Source: a bacterium (GTDB lineage: Bacteria; Desulfobacterota; Binatia; Binatales; Binataceae). Taken from it: DNA of 64,000 nt. The notes beneath the pieces are model-generated. The model searched no databases. It was given only the letters and a program-made list of their open reading frames with translations, and was not told the DNA's origin. Positions 6,498 through 30,555 of this stretch are shown here, piece by piece; the stretch's first letter is position 1; each line of letters starts with the position of its first letter. The position numbers and the translations under genes were made by a program. Where the stretch lies: NCBI GenBank assembly GCA_014896235.1, contig JADBKU010000004.1:1-64000 (forward strand). The letters are read 5' to 3'.

Positions 6498-7637
6498 ATG
6501 GAACTGGTCATTGATCGCGTTTCGCTTTTGAACGGGCTTGGCATGGTTCAGGGCATCGTCGAACGCCGCAACACCGTACCAATCCTCGGACACGTCCTGC
6601 TTGAGCCTGAGGAAAACCGGCTGCGGCTTTCCGCGACCGACCTGGAAGTCGGTATCCGCACCGAAATCGCTTGTTCGCGCGCCGACAAGGCCGGACTCAC
6701 GCTCAACGCGCGCAAGCTTTTCGAGGTCGTGCGCGAGGCCGAGGGCGAAGAAGTGACGCTCAAGTCGCTTGAGGGCGATTGGTTCGAGCTGCGATGTGGC
6801 CGGGCGCGGTTCAAAATGATGGGCCTCGATCCGCGGAGTTTTCCGGCGATGCCGGCGCAGGCGTCGAAACAGGAACCGCTGGGCGGACGCAAAGCGGTCA
6901 AGGGCGAACTGACGATCGCTTGCGATGCGCTGGCCGCGATGATCGACCGGACGATCTTCGCCGTCAGTCCGGACGAAGCGCGCTACAACCTGAGCGGCGT
7001 TTATATCGAGGCGGCCGACGGAAACGGCGTGCGGATGGTCGCGACTGACGGCCATCGATTGGCGATGGTCGATCGGGACGCGGCCGGATTCAACATGCAG
7101 GGCGGCGCGATCATTCCGCGCAAGGGCCTTGCGGAATTACGCAAGCTGCTCGACCAGGCTGGCGAAGGCGAGGTCAAACTCAGCATCGACGGGCAGCTCG
7201 CATGGCTTAAGCGTGGCGCGTCGGAAGTCTCGATGCGGCTGGTCGAGGGCGAATTTCCCGATTATCGAGGCGTGATTCCCAAGGAGTCGCGCTACCAGAT
7301 TTCGGTCGGGCGCGAAGCGCTGCTGCGCGCGATAAAGCGCGCGATGATCTTTTCCAACGAGCGCTATCACGGCGTCAAACTGGCGTTCTCAGCCGGCAGC
7401 CTCACGGTTTCGTCGGCGAGTCCCGAAGTTGGCGAGGCCAGCGAGACGCTCGATATCGAATTTGGCGGCGCGGATTTTTCGATCGGCTTCAACGCTTCCT
7501 ACCTTCAGCAGGCGCTGAACGTGATTCCCGCCGACGCCGAAGCGATTCTGGGCTTAAGCGACGAGGTAAGCCCCGGCGTAATCACAACGTCGGCGGATTC
7601 GCAATTTACCTATGTCGTGATGCCGATGCGGTTGTGA
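6498..7637 (+). CDS. dnaN: DNA polymerase III beta sliding clamp
   Basis: The ring-shaped clamp that tethers the replicative polymerase to DNA. Length is 379 residues, close to the usual 365-380, with three repeated clamp domains. Landmarks include NTVPILGHVLLE near residue 26, the ATDGHRLAM motif at the middle domain, and the C-terminal FTYVVMPMRL, the typical clamp ending. The ATG follows the dnaA gene after 254 bases. recF does not follow; instead an ABC transporter gene faces it with only 16 bases between the stops. Confidence 0.98.
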   Translation: MELVIDRVSLLNGLGMVQGIVERRNTVPILGHVLLEPEENRLRLSATDLEVGIRTEIACSRADKAGLTLNARKLFEVVREAEGEEVTLKSLEGDWFELRCGRARFKMMGLDPRSFPAMPAQASKQEPLGGRKAVKGELTIACDALAAMIDRTIFAVSPDEARYNLSGVYIEAADGNGVRMVATDGHRLAMVDRDAAGFNMQGGAIIPRKGLAELRKLLDQAGEGEVKLSIDGQLAWLKRGASEVSMRLVEGEFPDYRGVIPKESRYQISVGREALLRAIKRAMIFSNERYHGVKLAFSAGSLTVSSASPEVGEASETLDIEFGGADFSIGFNASYLQQALNVIPADAEAILGLSDEVSPGVITTSADSQFTYVVMPMRL

Positions 7638-7653
7638 GCGTCGAATCGGACGG

Positions 7654-8352
7654 TCACCAGGTTTCGAGTAGGCGTGCAACGTCGGGAGTCGCAGGCAAAG
7701 TGGCGAGTGAGTTCCAATCGCCTTGCTGAATTATTTTTCCGCGTTCGATCACCGCTACCTGCGGGCAAAGCCGATTGAGAATTTCGGCGCTATGGTCCAC
7801 GGCGATAAGGATGAAGTTCAGCCGGCGCTGCCATTGATCAAGTGCGGCGATCAGGTCGCGAATCAAGGGGCGATCGAGCGCGACAAATGGCTCGTCGAGC
7901 AGGACCAGCGGCGGCCGCCGCGCCAGCATCCGCGCCAACGCGACGCGCCGGGATTCGCCGCCTGAGATTTTCGCGGCGCGATTGTTCCAAATCGCTTCAA
8001 GGCCAAGCCGCTCGCGCAACTCGGCGATCCATTTGGAATTTTCCGCAACCGCGCCATTGGCCAACCCGAACACGACGTTATCGGCGACGCTCAAATGCGG
8101 AAACAGCAGATTTTTTTGCGTCAGGTAGGCGAGTGGCCGGCGATGGAGCGGCAGCGGCGGCGGGAACAGCTTCGTTTCGTTCAGCCGGATTTCGCCGGCG
8201 TCGGGATTTTCGATGCCTGCGATGCATCCGAGGATAGTGCTTTTGCCCGCGCCCGAGGCGCCGAAGATCGCGAGACGATCGCCAGCGCTGACCTGGATAT
8301 GCACGTCAACAGTAAAGCCGCCGCGTTTTTTGACGATTTGCGCGTCAAGCAT
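7654..8352 (-). CDS. Molybdate/tungstate-type ABC transporter ATP-binding protein
   Basis: The 232-residue ATPase has Walker A GASGAGKST, a Q-loop at YLTQKNLLFP, the signature ISGGESRR, Walker B LVLLDEPF and the switch histidine in VDH. It lacks the C-terminal TOBE domain of classical ModC, so it is a short version. It overlaps the permease gene by eight bases, making it the last gene of a binding protein - permease - ATPase operon. Oxyanion uptake is inferred from the neighbouring binding protein and permease, and from the divergent molybdate-type regulator half. Confidence 0.82.
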   Translation of the reverse strand: MLDAQIVKKRGGFTVDVHIQVSAGDRLAIFGASGAGKSTILGCIAGIENPDAGEIRLNETKLFPPPLPLHRRPLAYLTQKNLLFPHLSVADNVVFGLANGAVAENSKWIAELRERLGLEAIWNNRAAKISGGESRRVALARMLARRPPLVLLDEPFVALDRPLIRDLIAALDQWQRRLNFILIAVDHSAEILNRLCPQVAVIERGKIIQQGDWNSLATLPATPDVARLLETW

Positions 8353-9109
8353 CGCGAGATTGCGCCAGCAGATGAATCAGCCATGGCAGCGGGAGCGCGG
8401 TGAGCAGAAAGATGATCAGCAGCGGCATCACGGCAGGCATCCCGGCGGTCTGCAAATTGACCCAGATTTGCACCGGCATTCCGGCTGGATAATAGGCGGT
8501 GACGATTACCGCGCCGAATTCGCCGAGCGCGCGCACCCACGCGATGCTGATGGCGGCGGCAAGTCCGAGCCGCGCGAGCGGAAACGTGACGCGGCGAAAA
8601 ACCGCGATTGGCGCCACCCCCAATAAAGCCGCTGTTTGCTCGAGTTCATGCGGTACCGACGCGATCGCGGCGCGCGCCGCGACGATATAATATCCGATGC
8701 TGGCGTAAACCTGCGTGGCGACAAACGCGGTCGCGCTATTGCTGGTCGGTACACCGATCCGCAGCAGGAATCCGCCTAGGCTGCTGGCGGGACCGTAGGC
8801 GAGCGAGAGCAGCAAGCCGAGCGCCAGCGGCGGCATCAGCACCGAAATTAACACCGCCGCATCCCAGATAATGCGGTCGCGTCCGGCGCTCCGCGCGAGA
8901 TACCAGGCGACCGGCGTGCCGGCGACGATTACGATCGCCATCGCGATCGCGGTCAGAACAATCGACACCCGTACGGCGCCAGCGGTCGAACCGGGAACGC
9001 CGCCGTCCCAACTCCAACGCCCGACGTGGGCGCCGAGACCGACCAGGGGATAGAGCAGCGCGATCGTGAACGCCGCCATCCCGAGCATTTTGAACCATCT
9101 TGCGTTCAT
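8345..9109 (-). CDS. Molybdate/tungstate-type ABC transporter permease
   Basis: A 254-residue membrane protein with about six hydrophobic segments and the permease coupling motif in the region ELEQTAALLGVAPIAVFRRV, which contacts the ATPase. The resemblance is to ModB/WtpB permeases. It begins 12 bases after the binding-protein gene stop and overlaps the ATPase gene by eight bases. Start ATG at 9109 gives a short cytoplasmic head before the first helix. Confidence 0.85.
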   Translation of the reverse strand: MNARWFKMLGMAAFTIALLYPLVGLGAHVGRWSWDGGVPGSTAGAVRVSIVLTAIAMAIVIVAGTPVAWYLARSAGRDRIIWDAAVLISVLMPPLALGLLLSLAYGPASSLGGFLLRIGVPTSNSATAFVATQVYASIGYYIVAARAAIASVPHELEQTAALLGVAPIAVFRRVTFPLARLGLAAAISIAWVRALGEFGAVIVTAYYPAGMPVQIWVNLQTAGMPAVMPLLIIFLLTALPLPWLIHLLAQSRDA

Positions 9110-9121
9110 CTGATGATGACG

Positions 9122-10063
9122 TCAGGGCGTAAGCGGTTTCGCGTCGCCCGGGCCGTCGTAATGATAGCGCGCGAAGAGCGCGCGCGCCTCGTCGCCGCTA
9201 AGCCATCGCACGAAGCGCGCCGCCAGCTTGGGATGAGGCGCGCCGGCAAGCGCGGCGGCATAAAAAATCAGCGGCGACGGATGATGAACCTTGCCGTCGA
9301 GCGTGACCGCAGCCCGGCGATAACGGTCGGCCATCGCGGCGTCGCCGAGATTGATTTCGGGAGGCAGATTGATAAACGGCAAGCCGTAAGCCTCGGGTTG
9401 CGTGCGATATGCAGAGCTCGCATCAAGCTGGCCAGCTTGAAGACGCGCCATCACTTCGGGTTCCTGGAAAATCTGGCTCGGATTGATCGTGGCGCCAAGG
9501 ATGCGTTCCGGCAGATCGGGCTGATGATAAAATTCGGCCGCCAATTGCATCGCGAAGATAATGTTAAGACCCTGAGGATCAGTGCGCGGATCGGTGCGGC
9601 CAAAGCGAAATCCGGGAGTTTCGAGCACTCGCCACCATGGCGTACCATTCGCCGCGGTCGCATGAGCCAATTGGTCGGCGAAGCGGCTGTGCGGACTGTA
9701 TGCGATTACGACCGACGTGCCGGCGATCGGAATCGCTTCGGCGGCCTTGTGCGCGGCGAGGATCGTTCGCATCGGCCCGGGCGTGACGGCGATAAAAACG
9801 TCAGGCCGGATACTGCCCGCGACGATCAGATTGGCAAGCCCGGTCGAGCCCTGTGCGCGGCCGTGAAATTCGGCGCCGAGCGCGCGTGCGACTGCGGGCC
9901 GGACGCCGTGTTCCATCAGGGCGCCCATCGAGCCGGCATAGGCGACTTCGAGCGGCGTGAGCGCGCCGGCGAACGCCCGCCCGGCGAGCAAAATCACGAC
10001 AAGGAACGCGCCGAATCCGGCTTGAAACCGGGCGCGCGAGACGGCGCTTTGGGACTTTTTCAT
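9122..10063 (-). CDS. Periplasmic substrate-binding protein, molybdate/tungstate type
   Basis: The 313-residue protein starts with a signal peptide (about residues 1-32, hydrophobic core FGAFLVVILLAG, cleavage near AFAG). The mature part opens with LEVAYAGSMGALME and contains AQGSTGLANLIVAG followed by RPDVFIAV, the layout of ModA/WtpA-type oxyanion-binding proteins. It is the first gene of the three-gene transporter. Whether the ligand is molybdate, tungstate or another anion cannot be decided from sequence. Its start lies only 31 bases from the divergent regulator-like ORF. Confidence 0.83.
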   Translation of the reverse strand: MKKSQSAVSRARFQAGFGAFLVVILLAGRAFAGALTPLEVAYAGSMGALMEHGVRPAVARALGAEFHGRAQGSTGLANLIVAGSIRPDVFIAVTPGPMRTILAAHKAAEAIPIAGTSVVIAYSPHSRFADQLAHATAANGTPWWRVLETPGFRFGRTDPRTDPQGLNIIFAMQLAAEFYHQPDLPERILGATINPSQIFQEPEVMARLQAGQLDASSAYRTQPEAYGLPFINLPPEINLGDAAMADRYRRAAVTLDGKVHHPSPLIFYAAALAGAPHPKLAARFVRWLSGDEARALFARYHYDGPGDAKPLTP

Positions 10064-10081: not shown

Positions 10082-10098
10082 TCATACATGACATATGA
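10082..10098. promoter_or_regulatory. Candidate operator dyad between transporter and regulator-like ORF
   Basis: TCATA-CATGACA-TATGA is a 17-base dyad with perfect five-base arms in the very short gap between divergent starts at 10063 and 10095. Local regulators often bind such sites to control both directions. It overlaps the annotated ATG of the regulator-like ORF, so it is only a candidate. Confidence 0.35.
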
Positions 10099-11930
10099 CA
10101 AGTAATAGGGCGAAAAGCGGCGAAGCCGTTAAGCGCACCCGCGAAGCGCGCGGAATGACGCAACTCGAACTGGCGCGGCGCACCGGCATTTCGCGGCAGG
10201 CGCTCGGCGCGATCGAATCCGGCGCCTATCAGCCGGGAGTGACGGCGGCGATCGCAATCGCGCGCGCGCTGGGCGAAACGGTCGAGAATCTCTTTGGACT
10301 GGAAGCAGGCGATCCGAGCCGGAGAGTGCGGGCGGAATTGCTCGGCGCGGACAAGGCGGCGCCGGCGCATCGGGTCGCGCTGGCGCGCGTGGGTGGACGG
10401 GTTGTCGCGATCGCCCAGCCGGCGGTGCGTGTGGCGCTGACGCCGGCGGCGGGCGTTGTGGAGCTTGCGGGAAAGGGGCGCACGGAAGTCGAAACAACGC
10501 GCACCGATGAGGAGATCGACGCGACCCTGCTGATCGCGGGATGCGATCCAGCGGCTGCTATCTTGAGCGAATGGCTGGCGCGGCATCGCGCGCCCTTTGC
10601 TGCGGTCGTCCTGCCATGTTCGAGCACGCGCGCGCTGGGCGCTGTGCTCGAAGGCCGCGCGCACGCGGCGGGTCTGCATCTGCGCGATCCGCGCAGCGGC
10701 GAATACAACCTTGCGGCGATGCGCCGGGCGCTGGGCGCGCGGCGCGCCGCGGTGGTTACTTTCGCGCGATGGGAGTTGGGTCTCGCAATCGCGCCGGAAC
10801 GCGCCCGCTCGATCCGCGGCGTCGCCGACCTGGCGCGGCCGGGAGTGCGAATCGTGAACCGCGAGCAGGGAGCCGGCGCGCGCGCCGCGCTTGACGAAGC
10901 GCTTGCTTTCATCCACAAGCAGATTCTTAACGAAAACCTCTACCGGCTGATCGGCCATCGCGGCGTCAACGTCGGCCACGCGCACCCCTTTTATTACGAA
11001 GATCTCGCCCTGCTGGCTGGTTTCATGCCCTGGACGCCGCTGGCTCTGCTGGCGGGATTGCAGGCTCTGAGCCGCCCGCGCCCGCTCGATTCGCGCCTCG
11101 GCTACCTCATCGTATGGACTTTGGCCGTGCTGATTTTTTACAACCTGCCGCAAAGCAAGCGCGGCGTTTACCTGCTCGCGATCTATCCGGCGCTCGCGGC
11201 GCTCGTCGCGATCTTTCTTATCGACGCGATCGCAAATCCGCCGGAGCTGGTCCGCCGCGGCGCCCGGATGCTCGCGGTCGCGACGGGCGGTTTTTTCGTC
11301 GTCGCCGCCGCCGCGTCAGCGTTCGGTGTCGTTCTGCTCTTTGTTGCGCCCGCCGGATTGCTCTGGATTCTCGGCCGCTTCGATATCCTGCTCGCGCAGT
11401 TGCCGGCGAATCTGCGCCTGGAATTCGTCAAATGGCTGCCGCTCGGAATCGCGATTCCGCTTTTCGTCGCGGGCCTCGGATGGCGGCTCTGCCGGACGCG
11501 CGCGACCGTCGCCAAAGTCTTTTTCGCCACCGCGCTTGGCTTCGCGGCGATGGCGGTCGCGGTCAACTGCGTCGTCGAACCCGCCGTGGCCGACACGCTG
11601 ACGCTGCGCGGATTCGCGCGGCAGGCGCTCGCGACGGCCGGCGCGAACCCAATCGGATACATCGGCAGCCTCGATTACGATTTCGCTTTCTACAGCGGCC
11701 GCAACATTCGCTTCGTCACGACGCTGGACGCGCCCTACGAATACGTCATCTGCTCGGAAGACGATTTTCGCCTGCTTGGACCGCGGATGCGGGCGGAATA
11801 CGAACGGGTCGCGATCAGCAATCCGACCGCGTTCGACGGAACCAGCCGGATGCTCTTGTTGCGGCGAGTTTCCGGCCCGGAATCGCCGCCAGCGGCTCAC
11901 GCGGGCGCGGCGCCGAAAAGCGGCGTCTAG
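10095..11930 (+). CDS. Chimeric ORF: XRE-HTH molybdate-type regulator half fused to C-terminal half of a GT39 membrane glycosyltransferase
   Basis: Residues 12-70 form an XRE helix-turn-helix. Residues about 120-271 look like the first half of a periplasmic-binding-like sensor domain seen in molybdate-responsive regulators, reaching NREQGAGARAALDEAL. At about residue 272 (near base 10,905) the sequence changes abruptly to FIHKQILNENLYR, GHAHPFYYEDLALLAGFMPW and NLPQSKRGVYLLAIYPALA. These are hallmarks of the middle of ArnT/GT39 undecaprenyl-sugar-dependent glycosyltransferases, followed by about six membrane helices and a periplasmic tail. The sensor domain lacks its second half and the transferase lacks its N-terminal catalytic acidic loop. 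The frame stays open across the join. A deletion fusion or an assembly chimera is more likely than a working two-part enzyme. The stop shares a CTAG with the stop of the facing sirtuin gene. Confidence 0.75.
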   Translation: MTSNRAKSGEAVKRTREARGMTQLELARRTGISRQALGAIESGAYQPGVTAAIAIARALGETVENLFGLEAGDPSRRVRAELLGADKAAPAHRVALARVGGRVVAIAQPAVRVALTPAAGVVELAGKGRTEVETTRTDEEIDATLLIAGCDPAAAILSEWLARHRAPFAAVVLPCSSTRALGAVLEGRAHAAGLHLRDPRSGEYNLAAMRRALGARRAAVVTFARWELGLAIAPERARSIRGVADLARPGVRIVNREQGAGARAALDEALAFIHKQILNENLYRLIGHRGVNVGHAHPFYYEDLALLAGFMPWTPLALLAGLQALSRPRPLDSRLGYLIVWTLAVLIFYNLPQSKRGVYLLAIYPALAALVAIFLIDAIANPPELVRRGARMLAVATGGFFVVAAAASAFGVVLLFVAPAGLLWILGRFDILLAQLPANLRLEFVKWLPLGIAIPLFVAGLGWRLCRTRATVAKVFFATALGFAAMAVAVNCVVEPAVADTLTLRGFARQALATAGANPIGYIGSLDYDFAFYSGRNIRFVTTLDAPYEYVICSEDDFRLLGPRMRAEYERVAISNPTAFDGTSRMLLLRRVSGPESPPAAHAGAAPKSGV

Positions 11931-12724
11931 GAATAGCGCGCGCGGCGAATATCGCTCACCGCCGCGACCAGTCTCGGCAGAATCTCGCCGGTCGGTCCGC
12001 GCAGGCTGAAATCGCAAATCGCCGTGATTTCCGACTCGTACAAATTCGCCTCGACCAACACGCCGCCGCGCTGTTTCACTTCCAGTGCAAATCCCGCCGC
12101 TGGATAAACGGTGGCCGACGTCCCAGCGACGATCACGAGATCGGCCAGCGCCGCGTGTTCCATGCATTGTCCGAGCACGTCGCGGGGAATCGGCTCGCCG
12201 AACGCGACCGTGTCGCTCTTGATCAGCCCGTCGCATTTCGGGCATGGCGGCGGCAACGTATCGAGCCGGATGTCCTCGGCGCGGAATCGCGCGCCGCAAT
12301 CGATACATCGCACCAGCTTCCAGTTGCCGTGGATTTCCGCCAGGCCGGTCTGACCCGACTGTCGATGCAGATCGTCAACGTTCTGCGTGATCAAAAATTT
12401 GAGCACGCCCATCGCTTCAAGATCGGCCAGCGCGCGATGGCCGGGGTTCGGTTTGGCGACCTTGAGCGGCCCCCAGAGTTCGTCGTTCTGACGGCGGATC
12501 CGATCTTCCCAGGCTTTTTTCGGATTCTCGAGGAAAATCTGATAGCCGTTCATCGGCGGCTCGCCGTATTTGGTCCACAGCCCGCCGGGACCGCGAAACG
12601 GCGGAATGCCGCTTTCGACCGACAATCCAGCGCCGGTCAATGAGATTACATATTCAGCCCCGGCAATCGCGCGCGCGGCGGCGATTATCTGGGCGTCAGT
12701 CGCGCGCTCAGCTTGATTTTCCAT
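11927..12724 (-). CDS. SIR2-family NAD-dependent protein deacylase
   Basis: Sirtuins remove acyl groups from lysines using NAD. Seen here are the NAD-binding TGAGLSVESGIPPFRG, the catalytic TQNVDDLHRQSG with its histidine, and a zinc ribbon of two C-x2-C pairs (CIDC and CPKC). The start chosen is the ATG at 12724 (MENQAER); a longer reading has a poor leader. The first 17 bases overlap the end of the thioredoxin-like gene, so the two are probably cotranscribed. Sirtuin class is not clear, since the usual class III Tyr/Arg spacing is not obvious. Confidence 0.9.
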   Translation of the reverse strand: MENQAERATDAQIIAAARAIAGAEYVISLTGAGLSVESGIPPFRGPGGLWTKYGEPPMNGYQIFLENPKKAWEDRIRRQNDELWGPLKVAKPNPGHRALADLEAMGVLKFLITQNVDDLHRQSGQTGLAEIHGNWKLVRCIDCGARFRAEDIRLDTLPPPCPKCDGLIKSDTVAFGEPIPRDVLGQCMEHAALADLVIVAGTSATVYPAAGFALEVKQRGGVLVEANLYESEITAICDFSLRGPTGEILPRLVAAVSDIRRARYS

Positions 12725-13715
12725 CAACACCCTCCTCGGCGACCACGCACGAGATGAAGGTAAAGGCATAAGCGGTCACGCCCGCATCCAGCATGCGCAG
12801 CGTCAAACCGCCCGCCGCGACGGAATCATTGGTTGCGAGCGCGTACATCCGCGCGCGATCGACGTTGATCGCCATCCGGCCATCTTCAAGTTTCACATCG
12901 GCGCCAGGCTGATGAGTTCCGCTCAACTCCATCGCGACGCGCGCGGCGCCGCCTCCCGGCGGCTCCATCACCAGATTCACGTCCCTGGCGGTAAAACGCA
13001 ACGATATCGCGGCGCCCGAAACCCCGGCGCGTGCGCCCTCGCGGCCAACCGTCCACCGCCCGGAGAGATAGATCGCGCCCTCGGCGTGGCGGCCGGGATC
13101 GGCATATTCCGTCTCGCGCTCTTGCACCACGCCCGCCGGATTTCCGAACTGGCCGCGTTCGTAGCCAAGATAAAGCTCCGGCGTCACCCGATAGCATAGG
13201 GCGCCCGGATGGTCGCTCGGCCGCACCGGCTCCATCGGCGGCGGAAACACTGCAGCGGGATTCAGCTCTGCCAGCAAGGCTTGGATTCGCATCTCGGTCT
13301 CGGCGTACATCCCTTCGCCGAAATGGTAGTACCGCAGGCGTCCCTCGGCGTCGATCAGATATTTAGCCGGCCAGTACCGATTCGAGTAGGCGCGCCAGAT
13401 TCGATAATCGCGGTCCAGCACCACTGGGTATTCAAGCTTCAAGTCGCTGATCGCCGCCGCCACGCGCCCGCGATCGCGGGCGAAACTGAATTCCGGCGCA
13501 TGGACGCCCGCAATAATCAGGCCCGCGTTAGCATAGCGGCGATGCCATTCCGCGACGTATGGAAGCGTCCGCAGGCAATTCACGCAGGTGTAGTCCCAGA
13601 AATCGACCATCACGACCGCTTTGCCGCGCAGCCGTTGCAGATCGACGGGTCCGTGCTGCAGCCATTCTCCGCCTTCAAGCGGCGGCGCGAAGATCGTCTC
13701 TTTGATTTGGGGCAT
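12708..13715 (-). CDS. Thioredoxin-like protein with DipZ-type C-terminal domain
   Basis: Residues about 1-145 are a redoxin/TlpA-like thioredoxin fold with a CVNC active site in DFWDYTCVNCLRTLPY and a cis-proline region at YWPAKYLID. The remaining 190 residues resemble the C-terminal beta-rich domain that follows thioredoxin in DipZ proteins. No signal peptide or membrane helices are seen, so unlike full DipZ it lacks the electron-transferring CcdA part and may act in the cytoplasm. It overlaps the sirtuin gene by 17 bases. Confidence 0.85.
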   Translation of the reverse strand: MPQIKETIFAPPLEGGEWLQHGPVDLQRLRGKAVVMVDFWDYTCVNCLRTLPYVAEWHRRYANAGLIIAGVHAPEFSFARDRGRVAAAISDLKLEYPVVLDRDYRIWRAYSNRYWPAKYLIDAEGRLRYYHFGEGMYAETEMRIQALLAELNPAAVFPPPMEPVRPSDHPGALCYRVTPELYLGYERGQFGNPAGVVQERETEYADPGRHAEGAIYLSGRWTVGREGARAGVSGAAISLRFTARDVNLVMEPPGGGAARVAMELSGTHQPGADVKLEDGRMAINVDRARMYALATNDSVAAGGLTLRMLDAGVTAYAFTFISCVVAEEGVDGKSS

Positions 13716-28782: not shown

Positions 28783-30555
28783 CTAAAAACGATTAGCCAT
28801 CACATTCGGATTGCCGAACGTGTTGCTCGCGTAACTGTCGATCAAACCGGCCGCGACGCCGGTCCCGTCGACGCTCACCGTATCGTACGCGCCCATATAA
28901 TTCGGAGCGACCATGATGTCCTGGCCGACCAGAGACGGGAAATTTACCGGAGTCACTTTGAAATTTCTGAAAGTCGCGCCGCCATTTACTGACATAGCGC
29001 AAAATCGGTCGATCAAAAAATTGTTGTTGTCACGGCGGCGATCGTAAAAACAGATGCCGATTTTTCCGGTTTTGTCGGTGTTCATCGCCGGCTCGAATTG
29101 ATCGGTGTACGGAAACCGGCCGCCCTCCGGATTATTGTTGACGCGCATCGGCGACGACCAATCGACGCCGCCGTTCGACGACTGCGCGAACATCACGTCC
29201 GCCATTCCATAAAGCCCGGTCGTCGTGAGCGCATCCTTGACGCTGTAGGTAGCATTCGCCCACGCCAGATAAACGACGCCACCGTTCTTTTTGCCTTGTC
29301 CAATCGCCAACGAGGGCGCCTCATTGGACGCGATGAAACCCTGGATTTCCGCACCGTCGCCGATCGCCACCACGTTTGCGACTGTGACCGGCACGCTGAA
29401 AGTGGCGCCCGAATCGGTCGAGCGCGCGATTTTGATCGCGCGCGCCGTCGGATCCAATCCATTGACGCCCATCGCCTCCCACGCCACGTAAACCACGCCG
29501 CCCGGACCCACGGCCACCTGCGGCCAAACGTCGGATGCATAGGGGTTGTTTTGATCCGCGCAAACCTGATCGACGACCACCGGCTGGTTGCTCCAGGCGC
29601 CGCCGCCGTCATTGGACGCGACCAATTCGATCGCATAGCGAGGAATCGGTTGCCCGTACTGATCCCTGCCGCACACCGAGCCGGAATAATCTATATCGGC
29701 GAAAACCAGATACAGGTTTCCCGAATTGGCGCGATCGACCGCGAGTTTATCCTGGCCAATGATATCGGTCAGCGAACTCTTGAGGACCGCCGGCGCCGGG
29801 GCCGTGAATGTGGCGCCGCCGTCGCTCGATTGAGCGACAGCCACGCCGATCTGGTTATTCAGGCTGTCATACCAGATTGCCGAATAATAAAAGTCATTCA
29901 AATTGGCGCAAACGATCGACGGATTGCCCATCACCGCCTGCCACGAATTCGACGGCGGCGTTGGCGTCTGCTGGTAACTGAACGTGATTCCATGATTCGA
30001 CGATCGCGAATAGCCAATAGCGCTCGTGCCTGCACCGCCGAGCATCGTGCGAATCTCGCTGCCGGTGTCGTTGAACGCCACCACCGCGTTCGCGCCGCAC
30101 CATGCGTTCGCCGTTTCGTTCTGAGTAAAGCCGGTGAAGCGGGTCGCGCCGAGTGTGATATCGGATATTTGCCGCGGAGCGAATGCCAACGGGCCGAAGG
30201 CGCCCGCAATCAAACCGTTGAATGAAAGACTCGAGGCAATTTCCTCGCGGCTGCGCGCCGCGTCAAGATTTCTCAGGAGCGGCCGGATTGTACTCCATCG
30301 GCGCGACAGCGCGAGCAGATTGCCGACCGCGCCATCCAGGCCGCGATTTTTGGAATTGGGATTGGCGGCAAAAGCATGAAGATTGGACGCGAGCGAATCG
30401 AAAACCGCGAGCCGCGATGTTCCGGCGCCTTGCGCGCCAGCGACGCCGCTTAATCCGAAAGCTGCAATCGCAATCGCGAGCAGCGACCCGACCGCAAAGC
30501 CGCGCGGTTTTCCGCTTAGCTTCGGTTCGTTCCCGCGATTCGATCTCGCGCGCAC
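28783..30555 (-). CDS. Secreted sialidase-like (BNR-repeat) beta-propeller protein
   Basis: The 590-residue protein has a signal peptide (core VGSLLAIAIAAFGLSGVAGA, cleavage near residue 42). It then has several Asp-box/BNR motifs of the S-x-D-x-G-x-x-(F/W) type: SSDGGATF, STDSGATF, SSNGGVDW and SVNGGATF. These fold as blades of a sialidase-type propeller. Catalytic residues of true sialidases (Arg triad, Tyr-Glu pair) were not recognised, so enzymatic activity is unproven; binding of surface glycans is equally possible. The gene is monocistronic, facing the putative lipoprotein gene with 28 bases between stops. Confidence 0.78.
   Translation of the reverse strand: MRARSNRGNEPKLSGKPRGFAVGSLLAIAIAAFGLSGVAGAQGAGTSRLAVFDSLASNLHAFAANPNSKNRGLDGAVGNLLALSRRWSTIRPLLRNLDAARSREEIASSLSFNGLIAGAFGPLAFAPRQISDITLGATRFTGFTQNETANAWCGANAVVAFNDTGSEIRTMLGGAGTSAIGYSRSSNHGITFSYQQTPTPPSNSWQAVMGNPSIVCANLNDFYYSAIWYDSLNNQIGVAVAQSSDGGATFTAPAPAVLKSSLTDIIGQDKLAVDRANSGNLYLVFADIDYSGSVCGRDQYGQPIPRYAIELVASNDGGGAWSNQPVVVDQVCADQNNPYASDVWPQVAVGPGGVVYVAWEAMGVNGLDPTARAIKIARSTDSGATFSVPVTVANVVAIGDGAEIQGFIASNEAPSLAIGQGKKNGGVVYLAWANATYSVKDALTTTGLYGMADVMFAQSSNGGVDWSSPMRVNNNPEGGRFPYTDQFEPAMNTDKTGKIGICFYDRRRDNNNFLIDRFCAMSVNGGATFRNFKVTPVNFPSLVGQDIMVAPNYMGAYDTVSVDGTGVAAGLIDSYASNTFGNPNVMANRF

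Follow-up and report, generated by a model that had tools for sequence, protein, structure and literature searches.

A probable chimeric join fusing a regulator gene and a glycosyltransferase gene in frame in a Binataceae draft genome

The reading frame and its neighbours

The analyzed DNA (below, the window) is a stretch of 64,000 nucleotides from a bacterium of the family Binataceae (assembly GCA_014896235.1, here G000; contig JADBKU010000004.1, positions 1 to 64,000). The plus strand contains an open reading frame with an ATG at 10,095 and a stop codon ending at 11,930 (611 codons, no internal stops), flanked by genes of a divergent ABC transporter and by a Sir2-family gene. The features of the locus are as follows.

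7654–8352, minus strand: ABC ATPase of the molybdate/tungstate type (profile match)
8345–9109, minus strand: ABC permease of the molybdate/tungstate type (profile match)
9122–10063, minus strand: substrate-binding protein of the tungstate/molybdate type (WtpA-like, under the cut-off); the true neighbour of the regulator, with the adjacency kept in L003, L005, L006, and L009
10095–10904, plus strand: 5' portion of a gene for an XRE-HTH + PBP_like regulator, covering residues 1–270 of about 378 (Pfam HTH_3 and truncated PBP_like; 95% identity to the full-length L003 gene)
10905–10906, no strand: join between unrelated genome segments, where the alignments of all relatives end or start
10905–11930, plus strand: 3' portion of a gene for a GT39/ArnT-like membrane glycosyltransferase, beginning near residue 280 of 633, without PMT_2 (88% identity to the C-terminal part of the L001 protein)
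11927–12769, minus strand: Sir2-family gene (Pfam SIR2), the true neighbour of the GT39 gene, with the adjacency kept in relatives

The initial annotation described a 611-codon frame changing its character at about 10,905. DNA alignments to relatives confirm this and place the switch at 10,905/10,906: the alignments of four left-hand relatives end exactly at 10,906, and those of seven right-hand relatives begin at 10,905 or 10,908. The two sides of the join have about 2 bp in common and share no repeat. The whole window is free of Ns, and a scaffold gap was rejected accordingly. Of the three frames downstream of the join, one stays open for 340 codons, and the other two hit stops within 7 and 14 codons; hence, an in-frame fusion would arise by accident in about one of three cases, and selection is not required to explain it.

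The left half shows a Cro/C1-type N-terminal HTH (Pfam HTH_3, residues 13–63, E = 7e-14) and an incomplete PBP_like domain (PF12727, residues 161–271, profile positions 4–114 of 193); NCBIfam adds a weak partial match to PRK14498 at residues 128–274. In the closest relative, G003, the regulator (locus L003) has 378 amino acids and a complete PBP_like domain (profile positions 4–192). Residues 1–270 of the window frame are the front of a one-component XRE-HTH + PBP_like regulator, of the kind encoded next to molybdate/tungstate-type ABC transporters, and adjoin a divergent transporter, as does the full-length counterpart in the closest relative; unlike the full regulators, the frame lacks the last 108 or so residues (profile positions 115–193). 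The original description of this half, an XRE HTH and the first part of a binding-protein-like sensor whose family extends well past the motif at its end, agrees with these matches.

The transporter genes were typed by WtpA-like, ModB-like, and ModC-like matches, all of them below the curated cut-offs. The genomic neighbourhood suggests that the regulator family may bind molybdate or tungstate and control the adjacent transporter. A PDB search with the full regulator yielded matches to HTH domains only, a literature search for COG1910 combined with HTH found nothing, and the sole relevant paper found for PF12727 concerns a MoeA that carries this domain at its C-terminus (PMC10102598).

The right half corresponds to the C-terminal 56% of a GT39/ArnT-like protein of about 633 amino acids. 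Pfam gives no match beyond residue 271 of the window frame. The assignment to GT39 rests on the full-length relative (L001, also from G003, about 633 amino acids), where the PMT_2/PMT match covers residues 110–272 (PMT_2, 110–263), upstream of the point corresponding to the join (residue 280). NCBIfam shows a weak partial match to the ArnT family at residues 291–406 of the window frame. As the C-terminal part of an integral membrane glycosyltransferase, window residues 271–611 are close to the known GT39/PMT_2/ArnT-like enzymes, and the earlier assignment of this half stands; unlike the full enzymes, the frame has lost the N-terminal 280 or so residues that bear the PMT_2/PMT region with the catalytic loop. 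A hydropathy scan shows that this half keeps roughly five of some twelve hydrophobic segments, and the strong transmembrane segments in this half number five, not six as had been stated.

Arrangement in related genomes

Relatives from the same genus carry each gene complete and in a place of its own, in the conserved contexts transporter/regulator/pgi and uppP/GT39/Sir2; the initial annotation had proposed such a comparison with related genomes. In L003, L005, and L006, the regulator has the transporter binding protein on one side and pgi on the other, and likewise in L009, with about 1.7 kb extra before pgi. The uppP gene precedes the GT39 gene in L001, L002, L004, L007, L008, and L011, and the Sir2 gene follows it in most relatives. 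Among 56 related genomes, members of the same genus or family nearly always have one strong match per half, at separate places.

The regulator and the GT39 gene lie on different contigs in most relatives; in G003, where the contigs also differ, their contig positions put them at least 28 kb apart, and on one contig of G018 they are 137 kb apart. A simple deletion between adjacent genes was therefore rejected. The initial annotation had offered a choice between an in-frame deletion and a collapse of the assembly; its two truncated genes in one frame are retained here, the simple deletion is not, and an assembly error is the better supported of the two.

None of the matches listed from the 56 related genomes joins the HTH to anything past residue 296. 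The same junction, for which a database search had been proposed, is thus absent from these listed matches, and an old fusion kept in the lineage was rejected on the same grounds. A few weak distant matches do cross residue 271 (e.g., 206–537 in G051 and 177–607 in G047), but none includes the HTH; we take them for GT39 alignments stretched beyond their start.

Sequence missing from the assembly

Sequence that belongs on both sides of the join is either missing from the window's own assembly or found at contig ends. The missing parts are the 3' end of the regulator, the 5' half of pgi, uppP, and the front of the GT39 gene; no intact copies of them were found elsewhere in the assembly. On the regulator side, the regulator–pgi segment of L003 beyond the join matches the assembly only at 64,856–65,437 of contig C15. 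This contig is 65,437 bp long and breaks off within pgi, and the roughly 1.6 kb that would lead from the join to its end is missing. On the glycosyltransferase side, 5.15 kb (L001:850–6,001, including uppP and the 5' part of the GT39 gene) is missing. The uppP family (undecaprenyl-diphosphatase, PF02673) has no match in the whole genome G000, while it is present in all six other members of the genus; its lack is probably an assembly gap. Collapse of a repeat was considered and rejected, given that roughly 2 bp are shared at the join and that neither half occurs a second time, apart from a distant paralogue of the GT39 half.

Past the missing 5.15 kb, the sequence resumes on contig C41 at base 12,006, inside glyA. 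This glyA is the only one in the genome and begins at model position 15, its start being lost. The approximately 350 bp upstream of it (L045, positions 11655–12006 of C41) match neither relative as DNA; when reversed, this stretch encodes part of another glyA with an in-frame stop and about 40% protein identity to the glyA of the relative. The region beyond the glyA fragment of C41 is found on a different contig in each relative, C72 in G003 and C62 in G006. It is not plausible for a living cell to have, as its only glyA, a startless copy fused to a foreign-looking glyA fragment in inverted orientation. As this chimera occurs on the contig that should adjoin the right-hand side of the join, it is the strongest, albeit indirect, argument for an error at the window's join as well.

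Selection on the two halves

In comparisons with relatives, dN/dS is 0.11 for the regulator half and 0.17–0.18 for the GT39 half; among the intact relatives themselves, the values are 0.11 and 0.19. Neighbouring genes have dN/dS of 0.05–0.16, and both halves fall within or close to that range. These comparisons show no decay or shift of selection in either half. The equality with the intact relatives means that both genes stayed intact practically to the present, as expected for an artefact or for an event that has only just happened, and not for an established new protein.

The unchanged selection also bears on the functional reading of the frame, a strain-specific fusion in which a membrane-tethered HTH with an oxyanion sensor would still bind DNA and would alter the control of the adjacent molybdate/tungstate-type transporter. 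The frame is indeed open, and its second half provides about five strong transmembrane segments; however, the sensor stops at profile position 114 of 193, the GT39 half is devoid of the PMT_2 region, and no listed match in the 56 genomes spans the HTH and anything past residue 296. We consider such a fusion highly improbable. A real, working fusion of this kind would amount to a membrane-tethered one-component oxyanion regulator, for which these data give no support; the new architecture suggested by the initial annotation is accordingly not upheld, as both domains are cut and the listed matches contain no such join.

Origin of the join

The 611-amino acid frame is best explained as an artefact of a chimeric join in a draft assembly, made either by the assembler or from a chimeric template or read (probability about 0.84). 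The dnaN–transporter–regulator end of one chromosomal stretch would have been joined at 10,905/10,906 to the GT39–Sir2 end of another. In the organism itself, the regulator would be expected to be full-length and to have pgi after it, and the GT39 gene to be full-length and to have uppP before it; we infer that no cell carries the 10,905/10,906 join. Hence, the earlier statement that the autoregulator of the transporter is decapitated holds for the assembled sequence, but probably not for the organism.

The main alternative, which we regard as unlikely, is a real and very recent rearrangement, in which illegitimate recombination between sites sharing about 2 bp would have truncated both genes in this strain and left a non-functional fusion frame. 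There is no shared repeat to mislead an assembler and no N at the join, and the parts of the window checked between 18,000 and 57,800 follow the gene order of at least one relative. The sharing of about 2 bp disfavours a plain k-mer overlap and indicates either a chimeric template or read, or a real illegitimate join; the misjoin explanation must therefore assume a chimeric template or read. The reported relative rarity of misassemblies in MAGs (PMC8201837) also counts against it. On the other hand, a rearrangement would require the loss of uppP, the 3' end of the regulator, and the 5' half of pgi in one lineage; C15 merely ends in pgi, with no continuation into another partner; the neighbouring piece carries the independent and biologically implausible glyA chimera; and neither half has decayed.

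Chimeric contigs are a known error of draft genomes and MAGs (PMC8201837, PMC8172020), and the window genome is presumably a MAG, judging from its close relatives, since all the titled ones among them are MAGs. As in chimeric contigs of draft genomes and MAGs, segments from separate places are found here in one contig, and the sequence native to these places is lost; unlike chimeras flagged by lineage, both segments come from the same species, and lineage-based chimerism checks are not expected to flag them. A genome rated as 95% complete and 0.4% contaminated can still hold misjoins that mimic an in-frame "new architecture", and such misjoins can remove genes, e.g., uppP and the start of glyA.

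Other observations on the assembly

Compared with L003, about 995 bp is missing at positions 7280–7282 of L042 (about 62,280 of contig C15 of G000), where a nitronate-monooxygenase-like gene is reduced to its two ends; this loss may be either a real deletion or another collapse. At positions 29033–29041 of the window, the matches in G003 on either side are on two contigs (C14 and C19), while G006 runs straight through, supporting the order seen in the window.
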